Shown: positions 538 through 35,203 of the stretch, piece after piece | How positions within the stretch are numbered: position 1 is the first letter of the stretch | Layout: each line of letters begins with the position of its first letter | Assembly (NCBI GenBank): GCA_016868815.1 | Contig: VGFQ01000003.1 | Span: 186,001 to 250,000, forward strand | Length of the DNA stretch: 64,000 nt | Reading direction: 5' to 3' | Origin: Bacteroidota bacterium | GTDB lineage: Bacteria > Bacteroidota > Bacteroidia > Chitinophagales > Chitinophagaceae | The notes under the pieces: generated by a model | The model's input: only the letters and a program-made list of their open reading frames with translations | The model's database searches: none | What the model was told of the DNA's origin: nothing | Translations under genes and position numbers: made by a program

Positions 538-584
538 GTCTCAAGGGAAAGTATCGATCCACTCCGTTGGGTTACATTAGTGAG

Positions 585-3323
585 ATGAAAACCCTTTTCT
601 GCGGTCTATTGATTGTGAGTACGCTGCCTGTCCTTTCCCAAGTGCCTCACCCCGCTGAACGATTGGAAGTCCCCGGCCGCGACTCCTTCGCTGTCCTCCG
701 TCCCGGTGGTATCTCGGTGCTGCCCAGCGGCCGGTTCGTGAAGCCCGCCGGCCGTGTGCACCGCATCACGCACGACCCCTTCGGCCTCACCGTCTCGCCC
801 GACGGGCGGCGCGCTGTGGCGCTGCATAACGGAGTGCTCACCATCATCCAGCTCGATACCGACAGCGTCATCCGAGTGCCCGGCTATGACAGCGTCCCCG
901 CCTCGCCCTTCCCCAGGGGATCGCTACTCGGCGCGAGCTTCCATCCTGACGGGCGCACCGTCTTCCTTAGCTGCGGTGATGCCGGCACCATCATCGCCTA
1001 TGACTGCGAGCGGCTCGCCGTCGTCGACAGCTTCCGGCTCGACGGACCCAGCGGCGACAGCACCTACCGCGACAGCTTCACCTCCGACCTGCTCTACAAC
1101 GAGGCGGCCGACGAGATCCTCGCACTCGACCAGGCCAACTATCGCCTCGTGCGCATCGACCGGAAGAGCCGCCATGTGACGGCGTCGATACCCGTCGGGC
1201 GCCTGCCCTTCGGCCTCTCCCTCAGCCCCGACCGCCGTACGGCCGTCGTCGCCAACGTCGGCATGTACGCCTATCCGCTCGTGGAAGGCATGACCGAGGC
1301 GAACTACGACACAATGGTCATCCATCACCATCCCTACGGGCATAACACGCCCGAGTCAAGGAATGGCACGGTGGTCGATGGCAAACGCATCCCCGGCGTG
1401 GGTGACCCCAACGCGCCCGAGTCGATGAGCGTCTTCACCATCGACCTCTCAACCAACCGCGTGACGGCCCGGCTGCGCACGGGCCTGGCTGTCGGCCAGC
1501 TGGTGGAGGACGCCGAAGTGATCGGCGGCGCCAGTCCCAACAGCATCGCCATCCACCCGCCCTATGCCTTTGTGACCAATGCGACCAACGACAATATCGC
1601 CGTGATCGACTATGTCAAGGGCAGGATTGAGCGGCATATCCCGCTTCGTGTCGACCCAGCGCTCGACCGGCACCGCGGGCTCTTGCCCTTCGGCATCACG
1701 GCAAGCGCCGACGGGCGGACGCTCTACGTGGCCCTCCTCGGGTTCAACGCCGTTGCCGTCGTCGAGGTGTCGTCGGGCGTGACGAAGGGACTCATCCCCA
1801 CCGGCTGGGGACCGACCCGCGTGCGCCTCTCGCCCGACGGGCAAGAGTTGTTTATCGTGAGCTGCCGCGGTCTGGGCGCGGGTCCCAATGGCGGTAGAGG
1901 CTTCGTGGCGCCAGTACAGGGAACGTATGTCGGCGACATCCAGCTCGCCACCTTCCAACGGCTGCCCGTGCCCGATGCCGTGGCCTTGGATAGATACACT
2001 CAGGAGGTGCTTTCTTTTACATACCGGCGGGTGCCTGTGAAACCATCCGACAGTCCCCTGCCACAATATCCTGGCGAGAAGACATCGCCCATCCAACACA
2101 TTGTCTACATTACGAAGGAGAACCGCACCTACGACGAGGTCTTCGGTCAGATGTCGAACGCTCGGGGCGATGCTTCGCTGGCCCGCTTCGGGCTGCAGTC
2201 CGATGTATGGGGCAAAAAGCCCGGCAAGCGCGGACAGAAGGGGCCGGAGACCGACAGCCTCTATCTCCGTCAGGCTGACATCACGCCCAACCACCACCGC
2301 GCCGCACGGCAGTTCGCCTTCTCCGATAATTTCTACTGCGACAGCGACGCCTCCATCCACGGCCACCATTGGATGATGGGCGTGATCCCCAACGAATGGG
2401 TCGAGACGAACAGCAACACCAGCAAGTCGGCCCAACTATTCTCGCCCGCGCCCGGCCGCCGCTTCCCGGGATCGACGGGCAGCATGGACCCGGAGGACTT
2501 CGCCGAGACGGGCGGCCTCTGGGAGGCGCTGGAGCGCAGGGGTATCGACTTCTACAACTTCGGCGAGGCCAACGAGACGGCCCATGTCCGCGAGGAATGG
2601 AACGATACCCTGACCGGCGCCGCCCATGGCGTGATGGTGCCCATGCAGGACGCGCTGTTTCGCCGCACCAGCCGCGACTACGCAGGGTACAACACCAACA
2701 TCCCCGACCAGCTGCGCATGGACCAGTTCGAGCGCGCGTTCACCCGTCGGTATCTGAAAGGCAAGGCGAAGATGCCTTCGCTGGTGACCGTGCAGATCCC
2801 CAACGACCATACGGCTTCGCCACGGCCGGCCGACGGCTATCCGTATACGCATAGCTATGTGGCCGACAACGACCTGGCGCTGGGGCGCATCCTCCACTTC
2901 CTCTCCCGCACGCCGTATTGGAAGCATATGCTCGTGGTGGTGACGGAGGACGACCCCCAGGGTGGCGTCGACCACGTCGATGCCCACCGTAGCATCCTCA
3001 TGATGGCGGGGCCCTTTGTGAAACGCGGGCATGTCTCCCGCACGCATGCCAACTTCGGGTCGATCCTGAAGATGATCTACAACATCCTCGGCGTGCCGTA
3101 TGTCAATCAGTACGATGTTACGGCCACCCATCTGGACGACTTCTTTACCTCCAAGCCCGACTACACGCCCTATACGCTGACCTTTCCCGACAAGCGCGTC
3201 TTCGATGCCAAGGTCGCCATGCGTCGTTACGGGCGCGAGACCGACTGGCGGAAGGTGATAATGGGCCCCGAGATGGACGACGAGGACGACCAGCGGAAGC
3301 GCCACCAGGAGGAAGAGAAATGA
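585..3323 (+). CDS. Exported YncE-type beta-propeller/phosphoesterase protein (copy 1)
   Basis: The product is 912 residues with a signal peptide (MKTLFCGLLIVSTLPVLSQ). Residues of about 30-490 are repeated short motifs of a YVTN/YncE-like seven-bladed propeller. From about 500 to the end is an alkaline-phosphatase-superfamily phosphoesterase domain (AcpA/phospholipase C type): ENRTYD at 512-517, then GHHWMMG, PNDHT and TEDDPQGGVDHVDAH, which carry the expected metal ligands. This architecture is usually annotated as bifunctional YncE family/alkaline phosphatase family; its substrate is unknown. ATG 585 is preferred to the upstream TTG at 567 because it begins the signal peptide directly. It is the first of three paralogues between 585 and 10040. 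The last residues are a charged Asp/Glu/Lys-rich tail. Confidence 0.85.
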   Translation: MKTLFCGLLIVSTLPVLSQVPHPAERLEVPGRDSFAVLRPGGISVLPSGRFVKPAGRVHRITHDPFGLTVSPDGRRAVALHNGVLTIIQLDTDSVIRVPGYDSVPASPFPRGSLLGASFHPDGRTVFLSCGDAGTIIAYDCERLAVVDSFRLDGPSGDSTYRDSFTSDLLYNEAADEILALDQANYRLVRIDRKSRHVTASIPVGRLPFGLSLSPDRRTAVVANVGMYAYPLVEGMTEANYDTMVIHHHPYGHNTPESRNGTVVDGKRIPGVGDPNAPESMSVFTIDLSTNRVTARLRTGLAVGQLVEDAEVIGGASPNSIAIHPPYAFVTNATNDNIAVIDYVKGRIERHIPLRVDPALDRHRGLLPFGITASADGRTLYVALLGFNAVAVVEVSSGVTKGLIPTGWGPTRVRLSPDGQELFIVSCRGLGAGPNGGRGFVAPVQGTYVGDIQLATFQRLPVPDAVALDRYTQEVLSFTYRRVPVKPSDSPLPQYPGEKTSPIQHIVYITKENRTYDEVFGQMSNARGDASLARFGLQSDVWGKKPGKRGQKGPETDSLYLRQADITPNHHRAARQFAFSDNFYCDSDASIHGHHWMMGVIPNEWVETNSNTSKSAQLFSPAPGRRFPGSTGSMDPEDFAETGGLWEALERRGIDFYNFGEANETAHVREEWNDTLTGAAHGVMVPMQDALFRRTSRDYAGYNTNIPDQLRMDQFERAFTRRYLKGKAKMPSLVTVQIPNDHTASPRPADGYPYTHSYVADNDLALGRILHFLSRTPYWKHMLVVVTEDDPQGGVDHVDAHRSILMMAGPFVKRGHVSRTHANFGSILKMIYNILGVPYVNQYDVTATHLDDFFTSKPDYTPYTLTFPDKRVFDAKVAMRRYGRETDWRKVIMGPEMDDEDDQRKRHQEEEK

Positions 3324-3642
3324 ACGCCCCACCCTTGGAGGGTGGGTGACATTCGAGAAGAATGGGCGGGCTCGGCGATGGATATCCCCGGTCCCTTTTC
3401 CTTTTCGCACCCGGTGCGTCTGGGTTGTTTCGTCCGATGGATATGGTACGGACATAGTGAATGCGAAGATGGCGCATGTATGTGAAGCCTGCGTGAACCT
3501 GTGAATGCTGTATATGAAGCGATGTTTAAATCCTATGCGTGCTTTCAATCAATCCCATGTCCTTCGTATCTTAGAGCAGGAAGGCCCAGACGGCTGTGAA
3601 GGCCTGTGCCGATCCTTTCGGTATCGAACCTTTCAAACAACC
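3324..3642. other. Intergenic region between phosphoesterase copies 1 and 2
   Basis: There is a perfect hairpin CCCACCC/GGGTGGG (3328-3346) just after the stop codon, but no T-run follows, so it may stabilise the 3' end rather than terminate. An open frame joins 3505 to copy 2 at 3643, but its codons read as a non-hydrophobic lead before a clear signal peptide. I see no promoter box that matches well. Confidence 0.4.
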
Positions 3643-6072
3643 ATGTCCATGCAATCCTTAAAAACCTGGCTTGCGCTGGCGGGCCTTACCCTGATCCTTT
3701 CCACTTCTGTATTCTCACAGCGGGTGGTACTACCCAACGGCTGGTCGCTGACGCCGGCAGGAAAGTCGTTCCCATTGGGCGATCTGCCGCTGAACATGGC
3801 CGTGAGCCGGTCGGGTCGCTTCATTGCTGTGACGAACAATGGGCAGAGTGTCCAGCAACTGCAGATGGTGGATGTGAAGTCGCAGTGCGTGATCGACTCG
3901 CAGGTGCTGGCCAAGTCTTGGTATGGACTGAAGTTCTCTTCCGACGACCGGCAGCTCTTTGTCTCCGGCGGGCATGACAACCGCATCCTGCGTTTTTCCG
4001 TGAACGAAGGGCGGTTGAAGGCTATGGACACTTTCGTGCTCGACAAGCCCTGGCCTGTCCGGGTGGGGCCTGCTGGCATTGAGGTGGATGAACAGCGGCG
4101 CAGGCTCTATGTCGTGACACGTGAGGACAAGATGCTGTACGTGCTCGACCTCGACACGAAGCAGGTCACGGCCCGGTATGGACTGGACGCTGAGGCGTAC
4201 GATTGTAAACTGTCGGCAGACAGTAAGGAACTGTTCATCACCTGCTGGGGTTGCAACAAGCTGTTGAGATACGACCTGGTCGCCAACCGCTGGAAGACGC
4301 CTGTCGCGGTGGGGGATCACCCCAATGAGATACTCTTGGCTTCAGGTGGAAAACTTCTGTATGTCTGCAATGCCAACGACAACAGCGTGTCGGTGGTCGA
4401 TGTGCCTTCGGGTCGGGTGATCGAGACCCTAGACGCGGCCCTCTATCCGAATTCACCCAGTGGCTCCACCACCAACAGTCTGGCCCTAGATGCTTCGCGC
4501 AAGCGGCTCTATCTGGCGAATGCCGACAACAACTGCCTGGCGGTCTTCGACGTGAGTAAGCCGGGGCAGAGCCGTTCGCTGGGCTTCATTCCCACGGGCT
4601 GGTACCCTACGAGTGTGCGTGTGGTAGGAGGTCGCATCTGGGTGGCCAACGGGAAGGGGATGAGTTCGCTGCCGAATCCTTTCGGTCCTTCGCCTATCCG
4701 TCGACGGGAGGATGTGATTCATCATGGCTTTTCTGTCAAGGATGGGTCTCAGGTGGAGTATATCGGTGGACTGTTCAAAGGCACGATGAGCATCATTGAA
4801 ACACCGGATGAGGCCAAGCTTGCCCAGTATTCGAGACAGGTGTATGCCAACACACCTTATTCGTTGCGCAAGACCGAGCTGGCTGATTCACTGGCGCCGG
4901 GCTATCCCATCCCTATGCGCATTGGGCAGCCCTCGCCGATCAAATACGTGTTTTATGTGATCAAGGAGAACCGGACCTACGACCAGGTCCTGGCCGATGT
5001 GAAGGGCGGCAATGGAGACACTTCATTGTTGCTCTTTGGCCGGAAGGTGACACCCAACCAGCATGCCATCGCGGAAAGCTTTGTGCTGCTCGACAATTTC
5101 TTTGTCGATGCCGAAGTGAGCGCCGACGGGCACAACTGGAGCATGGGTGCCTATGCGAATGATTACCTGGAGAAGACCTGGCCCAGCAGCTACGGCGGAC
5201 GTGGAGGCACCTACGGGGGTGAGGGTGAGCGGGAGATCGCCAACAACAAGGGTGGCTTCATCTGGAACAACTGCCACCGCTACGGGGTGAGTTTCCGCAC
5301 CTATGGTGAGTTCGTGAGGGCAGGACACGCCAGCCTGCCGATCTTGGCCGCCAACCATTGTCCGCGGTATCCCGTATATGATCTGGCTGTGCGAGACACT
5401 ACTCGTTTCCGCATCTGGCAAGACGACTTCGACTCGCTTCTGGCCGTCGGCCGCCTACCCCGTTTCAATACCCTGCGCATGGGCAATGACCATACTGAGG
5501 GACTCCGGTTCGGCAAGCGCTCGCCCTATGCTTATGTGGCCGACAACGACATGGCTGTAGGTATGTTGATCGAGCATCTGTCCAAGAGCTCCATCTGGAA
5601 TGAATGTGCCGTATTTATCCTCGAGGATGATGCGCAGAACGGGGCCGACCATGTGGATGCCCACCGCAGCACGGCCTATGTGGCTGGCGGGTTCGTGAAG
5701 CGCGGATTTGTCGACCACACGCCCTATTCGACCACTTCGATGCTTCGCACGATCGAGCTGATCCTTGGTATGGGTCCCATGACCCAGTACGATGCGGCGG
5801 CCATGCCCATGTGGCGCTGCTTCGATACGATGGCCCACCCCTTCACCTTCCGAGTAATGGCTCCCTCCATCGACCTAAACGAGCGCAACACCGTCATGAA
5901 CGAGTGGCAGCGACGGTCGGAGCAGTTCGACTTCGCCCGGGAAGATTCCAATAACGACATCGAGTTCAACCGTGTGCTCTGGCATGGACTGAAGGGCGAC
6001 AGGCCTTTTCCGGGCCCTAGGAGGGCGGCATTTCTGTCGGTCCGAAAGGATGCGGATGGGGATGACGACTGA
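3643..6072 (+). CDS. Exported YncE-type beta-propeller/phosphoesterase protein (copy 2)
   Basis: The product is 809 residues from ATG 3643 (an in-frame ATG at 3649 is equally possible) with a signal peptide ending near VFSQ. A YncE-like propeller fills residues of about 30-420. The phosphoesterase domain follows, with KENRTYD around 441-447, GHNWSMGAYAND, GNDHTEG and EDDAQNGADHVDAH. The overall order matches copy 1, but an Arg-Met-Gly replaces the usual Pro before NDHT. Copies 1 and 2 lie on the same strand, 319 bp apart. The reverse-strand copy 3 converges on this gene across a decayed toxin-antitoxin region. The substrate cannot be told from sequence; extracellular or periplasmic phosphomonoester or diester cleavage is the family expectation. 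Confidence 0.85.
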   Translation: MSMQSLKTWLALAGLTLILSTSVFSQRVVLPNGWSLTPAGKSFPLGDLPLNMAVSRSGRFIAVTNNGQSVQQLQMVDVKSQCVIDSQVLAKSWYGLKFSSDDRQLFVSGGHDNRILRFSVNEGRLKAMDTFVLDKPWPVRVGPAGIEVDEQRRRLYVVTREDKMLYVLDLDTKQVTARYGLDAEAYDCKLSADSKELFITCWGCNKLLRYDLVANRWKTPVAVGDHPNEILLASGGKLLYVCNANDNSVSVVDVPSGRVIETLDAALYPNSPSGSTTNSLALDASRKRLYLANADNNCLAVFDVSKPGQSRSLGFIPTGWYPTSVRVVGGRIWVANGKGMSSLPNPFGPSPIRRREDVIHHGFSVKDGSQVEYIGGLFKGTMSIIETPDEAKLAQYSRQVYANTPYSLRKTELADSLAPGYPIPMRIGQPSPIKYVFYVIKENRTYDQVLADVKGGNGDTSLLLFGRKVTPNQHAIAESFVLLDNFFVDAEVSADGHNWSMGAYANDYLEKTWPSSYGGRGGTYGGEGEREIANNKGGFIWNNCHRYGVSFRTYGEFVRAGHASLPILAANHCPRYPVYDLAVRDTTRFRIWQDDFDSLLAVGRLPRFNTLRMGNDHTEGLRFGKRSPYAYVADNDMAVGMLIEHLSKSSIWNECAVFILEDDAQNGADHVDAHRSTAYVAGGFVKRGFVDHTPYSTTSMLRTIELILGMGPMTQYDAAAMPMWRCFDTMAHPFTFRVMAPSIDLNERNTVMNEWQRRSEQFDFAREDSNNDIEFNRVLWHGLKGDRPFPGPRRAAFLSVRKDADGDDD

Positions 6073-6214
6073 GTGGATGTTGTTCCGTAAAGGCAGCACC
6101 CTCATATGTTCATTGCGCAGGCTGTTTGCGCTCACGTGTCACGCGGGATGTTTCCTCCTGTGGGAGGTGCACAGCTCGGTCTGGCCAGAGGTTATCAGAG
6201 GCCTTGTTTCTGGT

Positions 6215-6386
6215 TTGGTCAAAAGTCAGAATGAACAGTCCTTGTTCCTTTGCCAGCCCTATGATGCTAATGGTCATTGAGTCTAAGGTATTTTTTAACA
6301 AGGCTGCGCACCACATACTCCTGTTGTCTGAGAAGCGTGACGTTGGGTGGCAGGAAATTCTCATTCGCTTAAAACTCAATCGGCAT
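6215..6386 (-). pseudogene. Degenerate DUF5615 (PIN-like) toxin
   Basis: Read from ATG 6386 the frame gives MPIEF, then TAA (6371-6369), then ANENFLPPNVTLLRQ and YVVRSLVKKYLRLNDH, with a stop at 6269-6267. The ANENF start and the following LRQ..YVV pattern are typical of DUF5615 toxins, which usually begin with a few residues leading into an L-A-[DN]-E-N motif. The TAA sits where that Leu would be, one base from TTA. The C-terminal half (IIGLAKEQGLFILTFD) continues in another frame, so there is also a frameshift near 6270. The rest of the family's end is unrecognisable. Nothing else was recognised in 6073-6214. Confidence 0.6.
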
Positions 6387-6602
6387 GTGCGGAAGGGAAA
6401 AAAGTTCATGAGCCATGCATTCTCTGACATATGCAAAGACAGCACTGATGACCTCCTGTGACAGTCCGGGATTTGACTCTAGCAATTGCTCCCTTACCCA
6501 TTCTTTTTCCTGGAAGTCTAGGATGAACTCCACTGATATCCCGCTGCCTTTTGGAATGGATTTTCCCAGCATCGTTTTTGGATCAGAGATGATGTATTCA
6601 CA
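6369..6602 (-). pseudogene. Degenerate DUF433 antitoxin
   Basis: The translation YIISDPKTMLGKSIPKG, then GISVEFILDF and ESNPGLSQEVISAVFAYV follows the DUF433 pattern (D-P, G-K-P-x-I, G-T-R-I-x-V-E-x-I-L, YPGL, AxxYA). The GTR motif is changed to GSG and the usual K-P to K-S. The frame is closed on the N-terminal side by a TAG at 6605-6603, and the only ATG (6572) falls inside the domain, so the start is lost. It reads in frame into the remnant of the DUF5615 toxin, consistent with a former DUF433-DUF5615 pair. The interval 6603-6761 upstream of it holds nothing I can recognise. Confidence 0.6.
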
Positions 6603-6761
6603 CTAATTTATGTCATAAAGGCATACCATGTGGGCGCCCATATGAAAGTGATTTTCACAAAGAAGATATGAAAAAGACGTTTCTATGGTACCTGAACGCA
6701 GTACATGAAAAAGCATCTGCAGCAGTTGATGGGCTCACCTGCCATGCACCTAGGGGTGGAA

Positions 6762-9700
6762 TCATTTCCCCGGGTAGGGTTTACGTCCCTTCGCATAGTA
6801 CCATATGATGCGGTTCATGGCATCATCTTCGCCTCCGTCGACCTCGTCGTACACTTCGTCCATGGATTGCAGGGCGTAGCGGCGTTCACGGCCCCGCAGG
6901 GTGGAGAGGGGCCGGTTCATCTGGTCGAGGGGGATGTTGGCAGGAAGGCTGGTGAAGGCCCTTTGCCGGGGCTCGGGCATAAAACAATCGGCCAGGGGCA
7001 GGGCGGCGGCGTCGATGGCATGCATGGGGGGTAGGCCCAGCACCTGTTCGATGGTACGCACCATGGAGGTCTGGTTGTACTGGGTGCCGACGACGCCGGC
7101 GCGGCTGTAGCGGCTGATGGTGAGTCCGACGGTGCGGTATCCCGAGATATGGTCCCATCCGCTTTGCGAGTCATCTTGTGTGACGAGGATGAGGGTAGAG
7201 TCGAAATAGCGGCTATGCGTGATGCGTTCGACGATGCGGCCCAGCGCCAGGTCGTTGTCGGCTACCATGGCATTGGGCGTGGGGCTGTTGGGGTTGAGGC
7301 CGGAGGTGTGGTCGTTAGGCAGCGATACGATCATCAGGTGCGGGAGGCTGTCTCCTTTCTCATAGGCTTCCCATTCGCGGAGGAAGACCTCGGCCCGTTG
7401 CTGGTCGCTGAAGACGAGGTTGTCGTTGTCGGGGAAGTCGGGTGAGATGACGGGCCGGATGCGTGCGATGGTGGTCTCATTGTACCAATCGGGTTTAGCG
7501 CCGGACTGGTATTGCTGGTAGAGGTCGATCCATTTTTTCTGCGGGTCATAGACGGTGCGGCAGGCTTCGCCATAGATGCGGACCTTTTTGCCGTGGTCCA
7601 TCGCGTGGTTCCAGATATATCCGGTGGAGTGGTATACCAGGGCGTCTTCCTGGCGGTGCGGGTAGCTGCGGTACCAGGCGCGTACGTTTTTCTCGACATA
7701 GTCGCTGACGATGGCGGCGTTGCTCCATTGGTGTCCTTCGGCGCTGGACTTGCCGGAGGCATGGTAGTTGTCGAGGATGCCATACTGCCTGGCGAGGGCG
7801 TGGGTGTTGGGCGTGATGCGTTGGCCGAAGGTGCAGAGCGTGCTGTCGCCGCGCCCGAAGGGCATGTCGCCAAGGACCTGGTCGTAGGTCTTGTTTTCAC
7901 GGATGATATAGACGACGTGCTTAAAGACGGAGGGTTCACCGATGCGTTCAGGGATGGGTTTTGGCTTGGCGTCGGGGCGGGCAGGCAGTCGACTGGCATC
8001 CATCCGGTGGCCTAAGGCGTTGCGGGCGGCCTGGCGCGACAGCTCGGCCAGTGATTTGTCGTCAGGGGTGGGGATGACGCTCAGGGAGGCGAGCTGGTAG
8101 TGGGCGCCCCGGGCCTTGCGGGCGGGGTTGACGACGTTGACGCCGTCGCCTTCGAGGTTGGCGACGATGATGCGGTCGGCCATGGCCACGCTGCCTGCCG
8201 GATAGGCCTCGGTGGGGATGAAGCCTTTGGTGCGACTGACCCCACGTCCGCCGGTAAAGGCCTTGGCCCCCAGCTCGACGACGGCGACGGCATTGTCCAA
8301 CCCGTTCGAAACCAGTAGCCGGCGGCCGGCGGCGTCCAGCGTGAGCGCGTTGGGGGAGGCGCCGCCGCGGCCGGATCCGGCGCCGAAGAGTCCGACGGGG
8401 ATCGTCTCTGCCACCTTTAGGTTTCGGGTATGGATGACCGTTATATCGTCGCTGTTCCCGTTGGCGACGTATGCATGCAGTCGATCGGCCGAAGTGAGGA
8501 TGGCATTGGGGTGGGTGCCGGTGGGGATTTCCCCGACGGGTGCGCCTGTGGCGGCGTCGAATACGCTGACGCTGCCCTGGGCGGTGGCGCCCGTGACGGG
8601 GTCGGTGTAGGCGAGTCCCCAGGGGATGCCGGCCCGTTCGCGGGTGCTGTCGGTGGCCCGGGGGCCGGCCCAGTTGGTGACGAACACCCGGCCTTGTGCC
8701 AGGGCGACGGCGTAGGGCGCTACGCCGGTGGGGGCGCGCCAGACGATGGATCGGTCGCGGAAGCGGACCTTTACGACCTCGTCGTTGCCATTGAGGGCGA
8801 GGTAGAGGGACGGGTCTTCGGAGTCATCGATGCAGATGCCGTTGGGGATGGCTGACTTGGCACCGTTCCGTTTCTCCATCGGCATGCCTGAAATGTCGTT
8901 GAGGCGACCATCCCAGGAGGCCAGCATGAGGAAGCCCCTGTCACTGCCGCCGGCGGGCCAGGCGATCCAGCTGCGGTTCTGGTACCGGAAGGACCGGATG
9001 CCGCTGTAGGTGCCCATGAGGCCGTTGAACTCTCGCCGGTCGGAGTAGGAGAAGCGTTCCAGGACCTTGCCATTGGCATCGACCACGGCGATGCCGTAGC
9101 GGTCCATCACGGCCAGCAACGCCGTGCCTTCGATCCGTGTGATGTCGAGGGCATGGTTTTCCAGGGCAGGGTTTCCGTAGCGCACGACGCGGCCGGCGCT
9201 GCGGAGGACGCGGTTGTAGGGCATCATCGGCAGGCTGTCGTGCAGGGTGGAGGCGCGCAGTGCCTCTTCATAGGCTAGGGATGGGTTGGCGACGAGGAAG
9301 TCTGCCAGGGCGTCGATGCGGTCTGTATTGAGGAAGTCAGCCCCGAGGCGGGCTACGAGCCGCCATCCGGCCTCGTTGTCGGGGCTGGCCCAGAAGCGGA
9401 AAGGCTTTCCGATGGCATGGGCGGCCTCGACGGCACGGGCGGCGCGGAGCGTGTCGAAGCGGAGTGTCTTCCGGTCGATATAATTCGCCCAGGAGTCGCT
9501 GATCAGGGATATGCGCGATAGACTGGCAGGGTTATATGATATGCCGGGTCTTCCATCAAAAAACAGATATGAGGCCCAGTCTTTGTAGGCGTCTATGGTT
9601 GGTCGGTTGCCACTGACAGAGATGGTGAGGGAAGGGCTGCCCGTGAGGGATGGATATTGCTGTAAAAGCGCTTGTAGAGCGCGCAGTGTGGTGATGCCTT

Positions 9701-10040
9701 CCGATTTGATGTCAATCAGCAGCTGCAGTTTCCGGTCTTTCGGTCCCTGCCTCCAGAGGCCCTTCCGGTCGAGTTTCGTCTGCAGGGGGTCTAGATAAAG
9801 CACTGCCAGGCTGCGTTCCGGATGCGCATCCTGACGGTCATGTGCAACCAGCAGGCGGCCATCGACCAGCCAGACGTCAGCCTCGATCGACTGGAAGCCG
9901 CGGTCGAAGGCGTGGTGAAAGGGTGTCGTTTGTTCGTAGTCGTTGTGCGAATGGACCGAAGGTGCATCAGTCTGTGTACGGCCTGGGAAAGCCCAGCTAC
10001 TTGCCATGGCGAGGGACAGCAGGAATACGATTCTGAACAT
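6762..10040 (-). CDS. Exported three-domain protein: PI-PLC/GDPD-like, beta-propeller, phosphoesterase (copy 3)
   Basis: The product is 1092 residues with a signal peptide ending near residue 24. Domain 1 (about 27-250) is a TIM-barrel PI-PLC/GDPD-like phosphodiesterase. It has H30 and H32 in HSHNDY, E53 and D55 in IEADVW, H67 in VAHD, plus LLIDIKSEG, matching the His pair and acidic metal ligands of that superfamily. Domain 2 (about 280-690) is a YncE-like propeller. Domain 3 (about 700-1085) is the phosphoesterase also found in copies 1 and 2, with ENKTYD at 715-720, GHQWSN, PNDHT and TQDDSQSGWDH. A phosphodiesterase and a phosphatase on one polypeptide could release phosphate from phosphodiesters in two steps (inference). 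The gene is transcribed away from the nuclease-like gene at 10194. Confidence 0.85.
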   Translation of the reverse strand: MFRIVFLLSLAMASSWAFPGRTQTDAPSVHSHNDYEQTTPFHHAFDRGFQSIEADVWLVDGRLLVAHDRQDAHPERSLAVLYLDPLQTKLDRKGLWRQGPKDRKLQLLIDIKSEGITTLRALQALLQQYPSLTGSPSLTISVSGNRPTIDAYKDWASYLFFDGRPGISYNPASLSRISLISDSWANYIDRKTLRFDTLRAARAVEAAHAIGKPFRFWASPDNEAGWRLVARLGADFLNTDRIDALADFLVANPSLAYEEALRASTLHDSLPMMPYNRVLRSAGRVVRYGNPALENHALDITRIEGTALLAVMDRYGIAVVDANGKVLERFSYSDRREFNGLMGTYSGIRSFRYQNRSWIAWPAGGSDRGFLMLASWDGRLNDISGMPMEKRNGAKSAIPNGICIDDSEDPSLYLALNGNDEVVKVRFRDRSIVWRAPTGVAPYAVALAQGRVFVTNWAGPRATDSTRERAGIPWGLAYTDPVTGATAQGSVSVFDAATGAPVGEIPTGTHPNAILTSADRLHAYVANGNSDDITVIHTRNLKVAETIPVGLFGAGSGRGGASPNALTLDAAGRRLLVSNGLDNAVAVVELGAKAFTGGRGVSRTKGFIPTEAYPAGSVAMADRIIVANLEGDGVNVVNPARKARGAHYQLASLSVIPTPDDKSLAELSRQAARNALGHRMDASRLPARPDAKPKPIPERIGEPSVFKHVVYIIRENKTYDQVLGDMPFGRGDSTLCTFGQRITPNTHALARQYGILDNYHASGKSSAEGHQWSNAAIVSDYVEKNVRAWYRSYPHRQEDALVYHSTGYIWNHAMDHGKKVRIYGEACRTVYDPQKKWIDLYQQYQSGAKPDWYNETTIARIRPVISPDFPDNDNLVFSDQQRAEVFLREWEAYEKGDSLPHLMIVSLPNDHTSGLNPNSPTPNAMVADNDLALGRIVERITHSRYFDSTLILVTQDDSQSGWDHISGYRTVGLTISRYSRAGVVGTQYNQTSMVRTIEQVLGLPPMHAIDAAALPLADCFMPEPRQRAFTSLPANIPLDQMNRPLSTLRGRERRYALQSMDEVYDEVDGGEDDAMNRIIWYYAKGRKPYPGK

Positions 10041-30336: not shown

Positions 30337-30352
30337 TGTGACTTCTGTCACA
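30337..30352 (+). promoter_or_regulatory. Perfect CRP-type palindrome TGTGA-N6-TCACA
   Basis: The sequence TGTGACTTCTGTCACA is a perfect inverted repeat that equals the CRP/FNR-superfamily half-sites TGTGA and TCACA with a 6-nt spacer. It is centred about 30-33 bp upstream of a -7-like box, so near -43 of the predicted start, where class II activators bind. It stands in front of the sulfur cassette. The palindrome is seen; the regulator's identity is inference. Confidence 0.6.
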
Positions 30353-30373: not shown

Positions 30374-30381
30374 TATCTTTA
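30374..30381 (+). promoter_or_regulatory. Near-consensus -7 box of the sulfur cassette (TATCTTTA)
   Basis: It differs from TAnnTTTG only in the last base. It lies 30 nt upstream of ATG 30412 and downstream of the CRP-type palindrome. A weak core box is what an activator-dependent promoter would show. Confidence 0.4.
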
Positions 30382-30411: not shown

Positions 30412-31242
30412 ATGTCCTCAGATCTGTTGCATGTGCTGGGTTACGCATCCTCCTTTCTGATCGGCATTTCGCTTGGTCTGATCGGTAGCGGAGGCTCCAT
30501 CCTCACCGTCCCTGTACTGGTCTATCTACTTGGGGTGGAGCCAGTGATGGCCACGGCCTATTCTCTGTTCATCGTCGGCCTATCCAGTCTCGTGGGGGCC
30601 TATCCTAAATACCGGGAAGGGCTGGTCGACATTCGTATAGCCCTCGTCTTCGGAATTCCCTCCATCACGGCGGTATTTGTGACACGTAAGTTCATCGTGC
30701 CCGCCATTCCTGAAACCATCGGGCGACTGGCAGATGTGACGGTCACCCGTGGCATGCTGTTGATGCTGCTCTTCTCCCTGCTGATGATAGCCGCCAGCAT
30801 CTCTATGATCCGCAACGGTACATTACGTAATCAGAACGCGCCCGCTGCGGACCGTGTATTCAACCATTCGCTTATCCTACTGGAAGGTACCGTCGTAGGG
30901 CTCCTTACGGGCCTCGTCGGTGCTGGTGGCGGGTTTCTTATCATCCCCGCGCTCGTACTGCTAAGTGGACTACCGATGAAACAGGCCGTCGGCACTTCGC
31001 TGCTTATCATTTCAGGCAAGTCGCTCATCGGCTTCCTCGGGGATGCCACCGAATATGCGATGGACTGGCGGCTGCTGTCCGTCGTTACGCTCATTGCCTT
31101 GGCAGGCATACTGGCCGGCCATGCGATGAGCCGCCAGGTAGACGGGGAGCGTCTCAAGAAGGGCTTCGGATGGTTCGTCCTCGCCATGGGACTGTACATC
31201 CTCTCCCGGGAAAGCTTGATGGGCAGCACCGGCCATCCTTGA
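30412..31242 (+). CDS. TauE/SafE (TSUP) family permease
   Basis: The product is 276 residues with about eight membrane helices and the duplicated Gly-rich motif of the family: GIGSGGSILTVPVLVYLLG-like near the start and GLLTGLVGAGGGFLIIPALVLLSG in the second half. TSUP proteins move sulfite, sulfoacetate, taurine or related anions. It opens the sulfur cassette, so export of sulfite or another oxidised sulfur product is a reasonable job here (inference from context). Confidence 0.85.
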   Translation: MSSDLLHVLGYASSFLIGISLGLIGSGGSILTVPVLVYLLGVEPVMATAYSLFIVGLSSLVGAYPKYREGLVDIRIALVFGIPSITAVFVTRKFIVPAIPETIGRLADVTVTRGMLLMLLFSLLMIAASISMIRNGTLRNQNAPAADRVFNHSLILLEGTVVGLLTGLVGAGGGFLIIPALVLLSGLPMKQAVGTSLLIISGKSLIGFLGDATEYAMDWRLLSVVTLIALAGILAGHAMSRQVDGERLKKGFGWFVLAMGLYILSRESLMGSTGHP

Positions 31243-31317: not shown

Positions 31318-33060
31318 ATGGTTTATCCTACATTTGATTCAATGGTTTCACAAGTCGATAAGGGTGGGTCGGAAACTGGTCGACGTCAATTCCTGAAAAG
31401 CTCGGTGCTGGCCGGCGCGGCCACCGCCATGGCAGCCATCCCGGCAGCGATCGCCTCCGATCATCCATCGCCTAAGAGGGAGGGTTGGGAAAAGCAGGGG
31501 GAAGGACTTGCCAACATTTCCCTGCTGATCACGTCGGACATCCATGCACAGCTGCACACCCACGATGAGTTCTTCTGGGAGGAGGAGAAGCCTGTGTTTC
31601 GTCGAAGGGGTGGGCTAGCTGTGCTAAAGACAATGGTGGAGCAATACCGATCGCGTGACCCGGAACACACGCTGCTGATCGACGGCGGCGACTTCTTCCA
31701 CGGCAGCGGCATCGCTACTTTTACCGAGGGAGAGGCGCTGATTCCTATCCTCAATGCGCTCCAATACGACCTGATCCTTCCCGGCAACTGGGAGGTCGTC
31801 TATAAGAAACGGAAGATGCTCTTCGACATGGGGCACAGCAACGCTGCGAAGGTCTGTGCCAACATGTATCACCAGACTGCAGATGAGGACAATGGTTCTC
31901 TGATCTTCCCTCCGTACTGGGTGCGGTATATCGGAGGAGTGAAACTGGGGATCATCGGATATACGGACCATCTCACCCCCCGCCGGCAGTCGCCTGCCTA
32001 CAGTGAAGGTATCCGCTTCGAGCATGCTGATCGGACGGTGGCCCGCTACATCCGTCTGCTACGCGAGGTAGAAGGATGCGCTGTCGTGTTACTCCTCACC
32101 CACATGGGACTGGCACAGCAGGTTGGCCTTGCCAACAACGCTGCCGTGGCAGGAGCTGACTTCATACTCGGTGCCGACACCCACGAGCGGGTGCGAGCAC
32201 CCATCGTAGGCAAGTTCTCCAAGGTCATTGAATGCGGTGCGTTCGGATCTTTCCTGGGGAAACTCGAACTGCGGGTGGAGCAGGGGAAAGTATCAGGGTA
32301 CCAGTACGATCTGCTAGATGTCGACCCTGCCAAGTACAAATCCGACCCGAAAGTCAAGGCCCTCGTGGAGGCTGCTGCAGCCCCCTTCGTCAAAGACCTC
32401 GGAACAGTCATCGGCACGTCCACCACACCGCTGCTGCGCTACTATGTGATGGAGACTCCGATGGACAACCTCATCACCGACGCCGTCCACTGGAAGCTGC
32501 AGCCCGACATCGCACTCAGCAATGGCTTCCGCTTCTGCCAGCCACTGGCGGTTGATCCAAAGACAGGCAGGGCCGAGATCACCCGGGAGTTCCTCTGGAA
32601 CATGTTGCCGGTAGACAGTGAGGCTAAGACCGGTCATGTAACGGGTCGTCAGATATGGGACTGGCTGGAGCAAGAACTGCAGAACGCCTTCGCATCAGAC
32701 CCCGCCAAGCGCTTCGGCGGCTGGTTTGTACGGTTCGCTGGCATGGAAGTCAACTTCACCATCGGCAATGCCTTCGGCAAACGGGTAAACTGGGTGAAGG
32801 TCAATGGAGCGCCCATAGATCCCGGGAAATCATACCTCATAGCTGCCTGCGAAAGAGAGGGCGACCCTGACGATACACTCTGCCGCATCGAAAAGGTATC
32901 ATCGCCCCGCCGCACAGGTCTTCAAATTCATCAGATTATAGAAGAGTATCTCGTACAGCACACGCCTGTGACACCTAGGCTGGAGGGGAGGTCTACTGCC
33001 ACCGACCAGCCTGCGACCTTGCTGACGCAGCTGCAGGGGACGAGCTACAGTTTCAGATAG
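31318..33060 (+). CDS. SoxB-like/5'-nucleotidase-family metallophosphatase, Tat-exported
   Basis: The product is 580 residues with a twin-arginine signal (GRRQFLKSS, then a hydrophobic Ala-rich stretch). The metallophosphatase domain has TSDIHAQLHTHDEFFWE, IDGGDFFHGSG, LPGNWEVVY, LLTHMGLAQQ and GADTHERVRAP. The 5'-nucleotidase C-terminal domain follows from about 370 (MDNLITDAV, SNGFRF). The HAQL motif with an inserted F-W-E segment, and GNWE instead of the GNHE of nucleotidases, match the SoxB branch, whose members hydrolyse sulfate off SoxYZ-bound thiosulfonate using two manganese ions. No soxYZ lies here, so the partner is missing or different. An in-frame ATG at 31342 could also serve as start. 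Confidence 0.7.
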   Translation: MVYPTFDSMVSQVDKGGSETGRRQFLKSSVLAGAATAMAAIPAAIASDHPSPKREGWEKQGEGLANISLLITSDIHAQLHTHDEFFWEEEKPVFRRRGGLAVLKTMVEQYRSRDPEHTLLIDGGDFFHGSGIATFTEGEALIPILNALQYDLILPGNWEVVYKKRKMLFDMGHSNAAKVCANMYHQTADEDNGSLIFPPYWVRYIGGVKLGIIGYTDHLTPRRQSPAYSEGIRFEHADRTVARYIRLLREVEGCAVVLLLTHMGLAQQVGLANNAAVAGADFILGADTHERVRAPIVGKFSKVIECGAFGSFLGKLELRVEQGKVSGYQYDLLDVDPAKYKSDPKVKALVEAAAAPFVKDLGTVIGTSTTPLLRYYVMETPMDNLITDAVHWKLQPDIALSNGFRFCQPLAVDPKTGRAEITREFLWNMLPVDSEAKTGHVTGRQIWDWLEQELQNAFASDPAKRFGGWFVRFAGMEVNFTIGNAFGKRVNWVKVNGAPIDPGKSYLIAACEREGDPDDTLCRIEKVSSPRRTGLQIHQIIEEYLVQHTPVTPRLEGRSTATDQPATLLTQLQGTSYSFR

Positions 33061-33080: not shown

Positions 33081-34094
33081 ATGGGAAACTTAGTCAAGAC
33101 ACACTGGCTGCCGATGGCGCTCTTCACGGGCATCATCGTCTACTGCACATGGGCATGGACAGCAGGGGATCGCACCCCCTGGGTCGCTACCCTCCTTTCC
33201 CCGAATTCCGACAGCCAATGGCAGGCTCCCAGCCTGCATCTTGACCGGATCCTGCAAGGGGAGGAGCGGCAGCTCGTCCTGTATGGCGAAGAGCTCATTG
33301 CACATACCGCCCGCTACCTGGGGCCAAGGGGAAGTGTCGCTCCGTTGAGCAACGGCATGAACTGTCAGAACTGTCATCTTGCTGCCGGCCGCCTCGCCTG
33401 GGGAAATAACTACGGCGCCGTGCAGTCGACCTATCCGCGCTACCGCGACCGAAGCGGGACGGTCGAGGATATCTACAAACGCGTGAGCGACTGCTTCCAG
33501 CGAAGCCTCAACGGTAGGGCACCCGATAGTTTGAGTCGCGAGTTCCAGGCGATAGCTGCCTACATCCGCTGGCTCGGCAGGGATGTGCCCAAGGGTGTGA
33601 AGCCCGTCGGCAGCGGGTTGCGCAAGCTCGCCTACCTCGGCAGGGCCGCCGAGCCCGCGCTTGGCGCCCTCGTCTACTCGGCCCGCTGCGCCAGCTGCCA
33701 TGGTGCTGATGGTCAAGGAGTCCTGGCCGCCGACGGCCTAGAGTACCAGTACCCTCCGCTGTGGGGTGACCACAGTTACAATACCGGCGCTGGACTTTTC
33801 CGCCTCTCAAACTTCGCGGGGTACGTGCACAGCAACATGCCCTTTAACCAGGCTACGGATACAAGGCCCGTACTCACGACCGAGGAGTGCTGGGATGTGG
33901 CGGCGTATGTCAACAGTCGCCCCCGACCCTATAAGGAGCCCAGCAGCGACTGGCCCGATATCGCGAAGAAGCCCGTCGACCATCCCTTCGGACCCTACGC
34001 CGACGGTCACACGGAGCAGCAGCACAAATACGGGCCCTACCCTCCTATCTTGGCCACCCGGAAGAAAGCCGAGTCGGCGACTTCCGGCAAATGA
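33081..34094 (+). CDS. Dihaem cytochrome c, thiosulfate dehydrogenase (TsdA)-like
   Basis: The product is 337 residues with an N-terminal membrane anchor or signal (about 8-28). Two haem c sites are present: CQNCH at 95-99 and CASCH at 203-207. The region after the first site (AAGR, then YPRYRDRSGTVEDIYKR and DCFQRSLNG) follows the TsdA/SoxX-like pattern. C138 in DCFQRS falls where TsdA enzymes have a Cys haem ligand, to be confirmed by alignment. TsdA joins two thiosulfates to tetrathionate. It starts 20 bp after the SoxB-like gene and probably passes electrons to the respiratory chain. Confidence 0.72.
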   Translation: MGNLVKTHWLPMALFTGIIVYCTWAWTAGDRTPWVATLLSPNSDSQWQAPSLHLDRILQGEERQLVLYGEELIAHTARYLGPRGSVAPLSNGMNCQNCHLAAGRLAWGNNYGAVQSTYPRYRDRSGTVEDIYKRVSDCFQRSLNGRAPDSLSREFQAIAAYIRWLGRDVPKGVKPVGSGLRKLAYLGRAAEPALGALVYSARCASCHGADGQGVLAADGLEYQYPPLWGDHSYNTGAGLFRLSNFAGYVHSNMPFNQATDTRPVLTTEECWDVAAYVNSRPRPYKEPSSDWPDIAKKPVDHPFGPYADGHTEQQHKYGPYPPILATRKKAESATSGK

Positions 34095-34155
34095 GTTTTC
34101 AGATCATATCTGCGTCTTCACCTATTCACCTACAAAACCCTACGATCGGTCATCC

Positions 34156-34722
34156 ATGGAATGGATCCTTCAACCCTGGCCTTGGTATGTGGCCGGCCTG
34201 CTGATCGGCCTCACCGTACCGCTTTTGCTGATCCTGGGCAACAAAGCCTTCGGTATCTCTTCCTCACTCAGGCATATCTGTGCCGCCTGTTTACCTGCCA
34301 ACATTCCTTTCTTCCGGTACGATTGGAAGCGTGAGCGTTGGAATCTTTTCTTTACCGCAGGTGTCCTGCTCGGTGGTGCCATCGCCGTCAGATTCCTGAC
34401 CACGGGCGAGTCCATCGTCGTCGACCCGCGCCTCATGCAGGAATTATCAGCCTATGGCATCAAGAGCACCCAAGGGCTCGTACCCTCGGAGCTGGTGTCA
34501 TGGGAGGCGCTGCTGCATCCACGCGGCGTCGTGATGATGGTGGCTGGCGGCTTTCTGGTCGGCTTCGGGACTCGCTATGCTGGTGGATGCACATCGGGGC
34601 ACTCCATCATGGGGCTCAGCAACCTGCAGTGGCCTTCTCTGGTGGCGACATGCTGCTTCATGGCAGGCGGTTTCTTTATGGCCAATGTCATCCTACCCTA
34701 CATCCTTCAGCTTTCACACTGA
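34156..34722 (+). CDS. YeeE/YedE family transporter, first half
   Basis: The product is 188 residues with four or five membrane segments. It contains the family motif [20 protein letters not shown] with the Cys that in the YeeE (TsuA) thiosulfate transporter guides the substrate, plus an N-terminal Cys pair (HICAACLP). ATG 34156 starts the first helix; an open frame further upstream overlaps the cytochrome. It forms a pair with the next gene, 19 bp downstream. Half-size YeeE/YedE pairs (PmpA/PmpB type) are common in Bacteroidota and Proteobacteria. Confidence 0.82.
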
Positions 34723-34741: not shown

Positions 34742-35203
34742 ATGCTTCACATAAATACACCGACCCACAGTTCCAAGGAAAGCGATTCCTACCCCTCCTT
34801 CTTGAAATATCTGTTGGCAGGCATCCTTTTTGGCATTCTCCTCGTGAAGGCCGAAGTCATCTCCTGGTTCCGCATCCAGGAGATGTTCCGTCTGCAGAGC
34901 TTCCACATGTTCGGCGTCATCGGTACGGCCGTCGTCACCGGCTTGGTCAGCATACGGCTGATCAAGCGTTTCAACGTAAAGACGATTGAAGGTGAACCCA
35001 TACGAATCGAGGATAAGAAGTTCAACAAGGGACATATCTACGGAGGCCTCCTCTTCGGTTTCGGATGGGCAGTGACGGGTGCCTGTCCAGGCCCATTATT
35101 TGCTCTCATCGGATCTGGCGCTACGGCTGTCGGGGTGGTTTTACTCAGTGCCCTTCTGGGTACCTGGACCTATGGGCTGCTCCGCGAAAAACTGCCGCAT
35201 TGA
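34742..35203 (+). CDS. YeeE/YedE family transporter, second half (DUF6691-type)
   Basis: The product is 153 residues with four membrane segments. The Cys motif GFGWAVTGACPGPLFALIGSG mirrors the conserved GACPG site of the family, so the two halves together provide the two-fold Cys arrangement of full-length YeeE. It starts at ATG 34742 and is the last gene of the cassette, followed by a terminator. Uptake of thiosulfate for the enzymes upstream is the likely role (inference). Confidence 0.82.
   Translation: MLHINTPTHSSKESDSYPSFLKYLLAGILFGILLVKAEVISWFRIQEMFRLQSFHMFGVIGTAVVTGLVSIRLIKRFNVKTIEGEPIRIEDKKFNKGHIYGGLLFGFGWAVTGACPGPLFALIGSGATAVGVVLLSALLGTWTYGLLREKLPH

Follow-up and report, generated by a model that had tools for sequence, protein, structure and literature searches.

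A perfect CRP-type palindrome lying upstream of a five-gene sulfur cassette in a genome of the Chitinophagaceae (Bacteroidota) is, with a probability that we put at roughly three in four, the operator of a dedicated cysteine-based class II activator of the CRP family that controls sulfur genes. Comparison with related genomes gives good support to the operator, the regulator, the spacing, the targets and the invariant cysteines as elements of this proposed system; that the regulator physically binds the site, and that it activates rather than represses, we infer from the same material. Throughout, the window denotes the whole stretch of DNA that was analysed (64 kb; 64,000 nucleotides).

Probable operator and promoter, and the cassette, in the window

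The features of the region are as follows.

30337..30352, no strand: CRP-type operator TGTGACTTCTGTCACA, which fits GTGAY-N4-RTCAC; predicted centre about −41.5
30374..30381, plus strand: −7 box TATCTTTA (consensus TAnnTTTG), with its TTTA 25 bp past the palindrome
30386 (about), plus strand: predicted transcription start, from the position of the −7 box and arithmetic
30412..31242, plus strand: TauE/SafE-family exporter (PF01925)
31318..33060, plus strand: SoxB-like thiosulfohydrolase-family protein (TIGR04486, 248 bits, below the cut-off of 550)
33081..34094, plus strand: SoxA/TsdA-like dihaem cytochrome c (CxxCH at residues 95 and 203)
34147..34722, plus strand: short YeeE-family protein, PmpA-like (matches the C-terminal part of the profile)
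34742..35203, plus strand: short YeeE-family/DUF6691 protein, PmpB-like (N-terminal part of the profile; start inferred)

Within the window, the only exact TGTGA-N6-TCACA is that at 30337-30352 (plus strand), and it equals the E. coli CRP consensus. When the window was shuffled 100 times, 6 of the resulting sequences contained an exact match (mean 0.06), and at up to two mismatches the window holds 18 matches versus 22.9 expected. CRP occupies −41.5 at class II promoters. The TTTA of the window's box sits at the same 25-bp offset as TTTG in relatives, and a transcription start site map of Flavobacterium has the −7 box, TAnnTTTG, spanning −12 to −5 (PMC9723704). Given this offset and this published box position, the palindrome is centred at −41.5, over the upstream promoter element, which is the class II arrangement. 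The first-pass annotation had described a perfect palindrome near −43 ahead of a −7 box ending in A, and had read the whole as an activator-dependent promoter. Palindrome and box are as described, the centre is shifted by our recalculation, and the promoter reading gains from the activator-like position and from a spacing shared with relatives.

To score site and box together, we used 49 training sites chosen for TTTG. The window's site scored 16.1, the top place in the window, with the runner-up at 8.8 and a maximum of 9.3 in five Markov shuffles. This is low compared to the training sites themselves (at least 25.8), because the box here reads TTTA. A scan for E. coli-type sigma-70 promoters returned none, versus 2.8 in shuffles, as expected for Bacteroidota. 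The palindrome is very probably the operator of a CRP-like regulator common to many Bacteroidota, judging from the comparisons described below.

The five cassette genes lie on one strand, separated by gaps of 75, 20, 52 and ∼20 bp (the last measured from the inferred start at 34742; the profile run for this PmpB-like protein covered 34754-35200), and are located beside ATP synthase and ABC genes. PmpA and PmpB halves of YeeE have been described (PMC11582611). Sulfur oxidation is a plausible role for the cassette, albeit with a SoxB-like enzyme that we call non-canonical because its score lies so far below the cut-off for true SoxB. Near the start of the window (567-10040), three large neighbouring genes, picked out by eye from the list of ORFs, encode related secreted beta-propeller/phosphoesterase-like proteins.

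Conservation of the site in relatives

That the palindrome should be kept in relatives was a further expectation of the first-pass annotation, and it is borne out. At 37 loci, many of them truncated, we searched the 400 bp upstream of cassette genes, allowing the site a single mismatch. Such a site was present at 23 of the 37 loci and upstream of TauE at 12 of the 17 loci where this gene is untruncated. Among the five TauE loci lacking it, one (L058, genome G082) comes from a genome that encodes a regulator orthologue (49% identical) elsewhere, and for another (L072) no regulator orthologue was found. At the remaining three (L078, L079 and L082), where the cassettes lack the palindrome, the regulator homologues are distant and have the recognition-helix glutamate E183 replaced by Val (TTRVV[VI]SR), a change confined to these 3 of 34 homologues; such a pairing would be expected from a change of specificity, although the three cases are related. 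One genome (G026, 98% complete) retains the TauE site with no regulator orthologue at E <= 1e-30. The contig of the nearest relative (G028) breaks off within TauE, which puts the site region outside the comparison.

A second comparison covered 80 named loci, those ranking highest by regulator alignment among 505 relatives. In this set, 67 of 170 genes labelled as sulfur genes have GTGAY-N4-RTCAC in their upstream region versus 12 of 658 other genes, the genes concerned including TauE, persulfide dioxygenase (PDO), YeeE and cytochrome genes, and the coding sequence (1,131 kb) contains 5 matches. For 59 permuted palindromes the mean was 0.36 per 170 sulfur genes; the maximum, 17, came from a permutation that overlaps the real motif, and the next highest among those listed was 1 of 170. 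Of 76 sites from these best 80 loci, 50 have the tetranucleotide TTTG precisely 25 bp past the 16-mer, compared to four at 26 bp and at most two at any other offset. One caveat here is that a few of the 76 sites, having divergent genes on either side, are counted twice, and that the loci are related, several being on the same contigs or from near-identical species, which makes the counts non-independent. No exact match was seen at 23 of the 80 loci; of these, 13 carry a correctly spaced site with one or two mismatches ahead of a sulfur gene, whereas the other 10 have none. Several loci from Flavobacteriales and other groups (L134-L136, L140, L146, L156, L162 and L184) have asymmetric PDO or TauE sites, such as GTAAC-N4-GTCAC, which keep the ∼25-bp spacing to TTTG.

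Class II activation typically shows such rigid phasing (25 bp), with the site at −41.5. Moreover, only 3 of the 76 sites show TTTG at an offset of 0-5 past the palindrome, which indicates that no canonical −33 box is left. These data bear on the possibility that the regulator is instead a repressor, blocking polymerase from −41.5 and released by sulfur stress, as for BigR or SqrR. A protein bound over the −33 region could indeed exclude polymerase, and known sensors of ArsR type that act on these genes are repressors (PMC7315123, PMC9774590), but with no canonical −33 box to block we consider repression improbable.

At the level of the order, the full site-plus-box pattern is found in 48 of 119 genomes. 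Of the 21 genomes that encode a close orthologue of the regulator, 17 have it, compared to 31 among the other 98 (Fisher P = 4e-5, with kinship ignored), where close means E <= 1e-48, a line set after the list had been seen. Genes for thioredoxin, rhodanese, OsmC and YgaP-like proteins lie directly 3′ of operator and box in L217, L219, L227 and L236. Other genes 3′ of the pattern encode a cupin, a DUF465 protein and an alginate-export porin, and hence not all matches mark sulfur genes.

A probable second target in the same genome

Counts of the bare palindrome are near chance. The 2.85-Mb genome contains three exact copies of TGTGA-N6-TCACA, with ∼2.7 predicted at 4^-10 per base; the two beyond the window fall in AT-rich intergenic DNA on contig C11 (L002) and inside a long ORF on C26 (L003). 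With one mismatch allowed there are 56 copies, versus 20 for a reversed control. We set such counts aside as uninformative, whether exact, at one mismatch or, for the window, at two; placement and conservation carry the case. The motif GTGAY-N4-RTCAC is found 17 times, compared to 2 for its reversed control. Among 15 of these sites that were examined, 12 lie inside ORFs and the window's site alone is followed by TTTA or TTTG with the correct spacing. The site on C15 has neither tetranucleotide there.

On these numbers one might take the window palindrome for a coincidence, since three exact copies equal the chance expectation and most of the examined sites are intragenic. We find this hardly credible, given that the site is kept before orthologous genes at a fixed distance from the −7 box and far outscores every other place in the window and its Markov shuffles. 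The first-pass annotation had itself named frequent copies at random genome positions as a point against its proposal. In its promoter-spaced form with TTTG, the pattern has a single match in the genome, 30 bp upstream of the start of a persulfide dioxygenase gene on C25. The product, a metallo-beta-lactamase (MBL)/rhodanese protein, is 77% identical to a relative's PDO, and is the only full MBL-type PDO among three matches in the genome, the other two corresponding to the rhodanese part only. This independent second target is the strongest single argument for placing the window's site in a sulfur regulon.

The regulator

The genome encodes a single cNMP-domain (CRP/FNR-type) protein, at C27:12396-13031 on the minus strand. 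It combines a cNMP-type sensor domain (PF00027, 41.2 bits) with a Crp-type helix-turn-helix (PF13545, 43.6 bits), both above their cut-offs; its fold matches CRP, NtcA and FNR structures, and it belongs to the CRP/FNR superfamily. In CRP, Glu72 and Arg82 bind the phosphate of cAMP. The recognition helix of this regulator, TSREVISR, retains R, E and R of the CRP helix. The region aligned to the phosphate-binding cassette of E. coli CRP, however, reads (G)-x-A-C-A-L-S-x-x-C, and both phosphate-binding residues are gone. Of 34 homologues, 31 have A and 3 have S in the E72 column; in the Arg82 column, Q is found in 26 and R in 3. C78 and C84 are invariant in all 34 aligned homologues, down to ∼32% identity, and all 80 named homologues (the best 80 of 505 relatives) contain ACAxSxxC, which lies in a region left out of the search patterns of that scan. 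The AlphaFold model has a mean pLDDT of 83.6, lowest at residues 80-88, the cysteine loop.

Classical control by cAMP-CRP, coupling sulfur oxidation to energy supply, would account for a site that has the TGTGA-N6-TCACA form of CRP operators and for the retained R, E and R. We nevertheless think it very improbable: besides the loss of the cassette residues, the protein scores 47.3 bits against the NCBIfam equivalog for CRP (NF008732), where the cut-off is 266, and no class III adenylate cyclase (PF00211) was found in the assembly, which is 92% complete. The protein also departs from FNR. FNR ligates a [4Fe-4S] cluster with four cysteines and its operator consensus is TTGAT-N4-ATCAA; two cysteines per subunit are too few for a cluster of this type. 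The 34 sequences have only two conserved Cys columns, and the sites are GTGAY-N4-RTCAC.

The regulator gene does not appear to control itself. No site with up to two mismatches was found near it on C27, and in the best 80 of 505 relatives GTGAY-N4-RTCAC occurs in 1 of 62 regions upstream of CRP genes.

Proposed mechanism and signal

In the mechanism that we propose, the regulator encoded on C27 would bind GTGAY-N4-RTCAC as a dimer centred at −41.5, taking the place of the −33 element, and would aid RNA polymerase at a promoter with a −7 box only, i.e. class II activation. The operon under its control would comprise the genes for TauE, the SoxB-like protein, cytochrome c, YeeE and DUF6691, and the second site would place the persulfide dioxygenase on C25 under the same control. 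C78 and C84, at the former phosphate-binding cassette, would serve the sensor domain in place of cAMP, with sulfane sulfur (persulfide or polysulfide) linking or modifying the pair.

A conserved Cys pair in what is seemingly the regulator of sulfur detoxification genes is one feature of bacterial persulfide sensors. Sulfane sulfur is the likeliest signal because the CRP residues are lost, the Cys pair is present, and the targets include PDO, TauE, YeeE and rhodanese genes; going by gene neighbourhood and cysteines, we hold it slightly more probable than not. The first-pass annotation had suggested redox state or energy supply. Energy sensed through cAMP is unlikely given that Glu and Arg have been lost, that two invariant cysteines stand in their region, and that the assembly yielded no class III (PF00211) cyclase; redox comes closer, although the neighbourhood would point to reactive sulfur, not oxygen.

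With the same operator and regulator, the Cys pair might instead respond to a metal, to the general thiol/disulfide redox state or, by way of a bridging Fe-S cluster, to O2 or NO. Sensors of O2, NO and CO are known in the CRP/FNR superfamily, two cysteines might be joined in a disulfide or hold a metal or cluster between the two subunits, and the thioredoxin and OsmC genes 3′ of sites in L217 and L227 would suit such a role. Yet the four-Cys set of FNR is absent, and the targets are mainly concerned with sulfur handling (TauE, PDO, YeeE, rhodanese, SQR-like). We regard these other signals as unlikely, if worth keeping in mind.

More broadly, Bacteroidota might sense persulfide by means of a CRP-fold class II activator, in which the cAMP cassette has been turned into a C-x5-C thiol switch and the operator with its −7 box at 25 bp marks persulfide-handling genes of Chitinophagales, Sphingobacteriales and Cytophagales, in degenerate form in Flavobacteriales. 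For a proposal of this breadth we see even odds.

Relation to known systems

A CRP-family class II activator is, as a kind, already known. The regulator resembles E. coli cAMP-CRP at class II promoters in fold, DNA consensus, Arg-Glu-x-x-x-Arg helix and a site at −41.5, but differs in lacking the cAMP cassette and in having two invariant cysteines, dedicated sulfur targets and a Bacteroidota −7 box. FisR, a sigma-54 activator of SQR/PDO/TauE in Acinetobacter and Cupriavidus (PMC7315123, PMC9774590), would, if our reading is right, be alike as a Cys-based sulfane-sulfur activator of PDO and TauE, although its protein family and sigma factor are unrelated. BigR/SqrR (PMC7315123, PMC9774590) and SoxR (PMC10451225) are described as ArsR-family dithiol persulfide repressors; they share two-Cys sensing and YeeE/PDO targets, whereas here the fold is that of CRP and the position activator-like. 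CstR, a CsoR-like persulfide repressor of Staphylococcus (PMC9774590), likewise sets a two-Cys persulfide switch over sulfur-handling genes, but has an all-helical CsoR-type fold and represses.

In Porphyromonas gingivalis, CrpPg is a cAMP-independent Crp homologue whose deletion lowers trxA; it is set apart by its description as a global regulator, which in the available text of PMC12040651 includes no tie to this operator or to sulfur genes. Among solved structures, the best sequence match to our regulator is 3dv8 (E 9e-28), a Crp/Fnr-family protein of Eubacterium rectale that carries C-x5-C (CLLSASC) at the same place but comes from another phylum and has no assigned function or targets. 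Its cysteine motif hints that this type of regulator reaches other phyla.

The sensors named in the available text of one review are CstR, SqrR/BigR and FisR, with no mention there of Bacteroidetes (PMC9774590). Our search of the literature, whose coverage mostly excluded subscription journals, returned nothing on this regulator, regulon or motif, nor on a sulfur regulon that spans the phylum and is governed by a CRP protein whose former cAMP site holds a Cys pair. If the reading is right, a CRP-fold member joins FisR, the ArsR-type sensors and CstR, a probable sulfur-stress sensor can be named for a large phylum, targets become predictable from a DNA motif and promoter spacing alone, and a cAMP pocket has been converted into an apparent thiol switch.

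Gene order around the regulator

In relatives, the regulator and the cassette are often found together: 17 of the 37 stretches containing a SoxB-like gene also encode a regulator homologue, usually beside TauE or YeeE. Two loci (L074 and L059) share the order sugar-phosphate guanylyltransferase, aminotransferase, DsrE-like gene, cassette genes, crp, mnmG (the first two named by eye from sequence), with some cassette genes inverted and one further gene intervening in L059. The regulator locus of the present genome (G000:C27:11862-13672, L088) has the same flanks, with the cassette absent between the DsrE-like gene and crp. From this gene order, the cassette was most likely relocated away from the regulator gene to C3, carrying the operator along. 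Contamination by C27, whose GC content is 0.53 versus 0.56 for the window, was considered and rejected, as its mnmG - crp - DsrE order agrees with that of relatives. The arrangement is shared by cultured Pedobacter, Chitinophaga and Mucilaginibacter, which makes the model directly testable.
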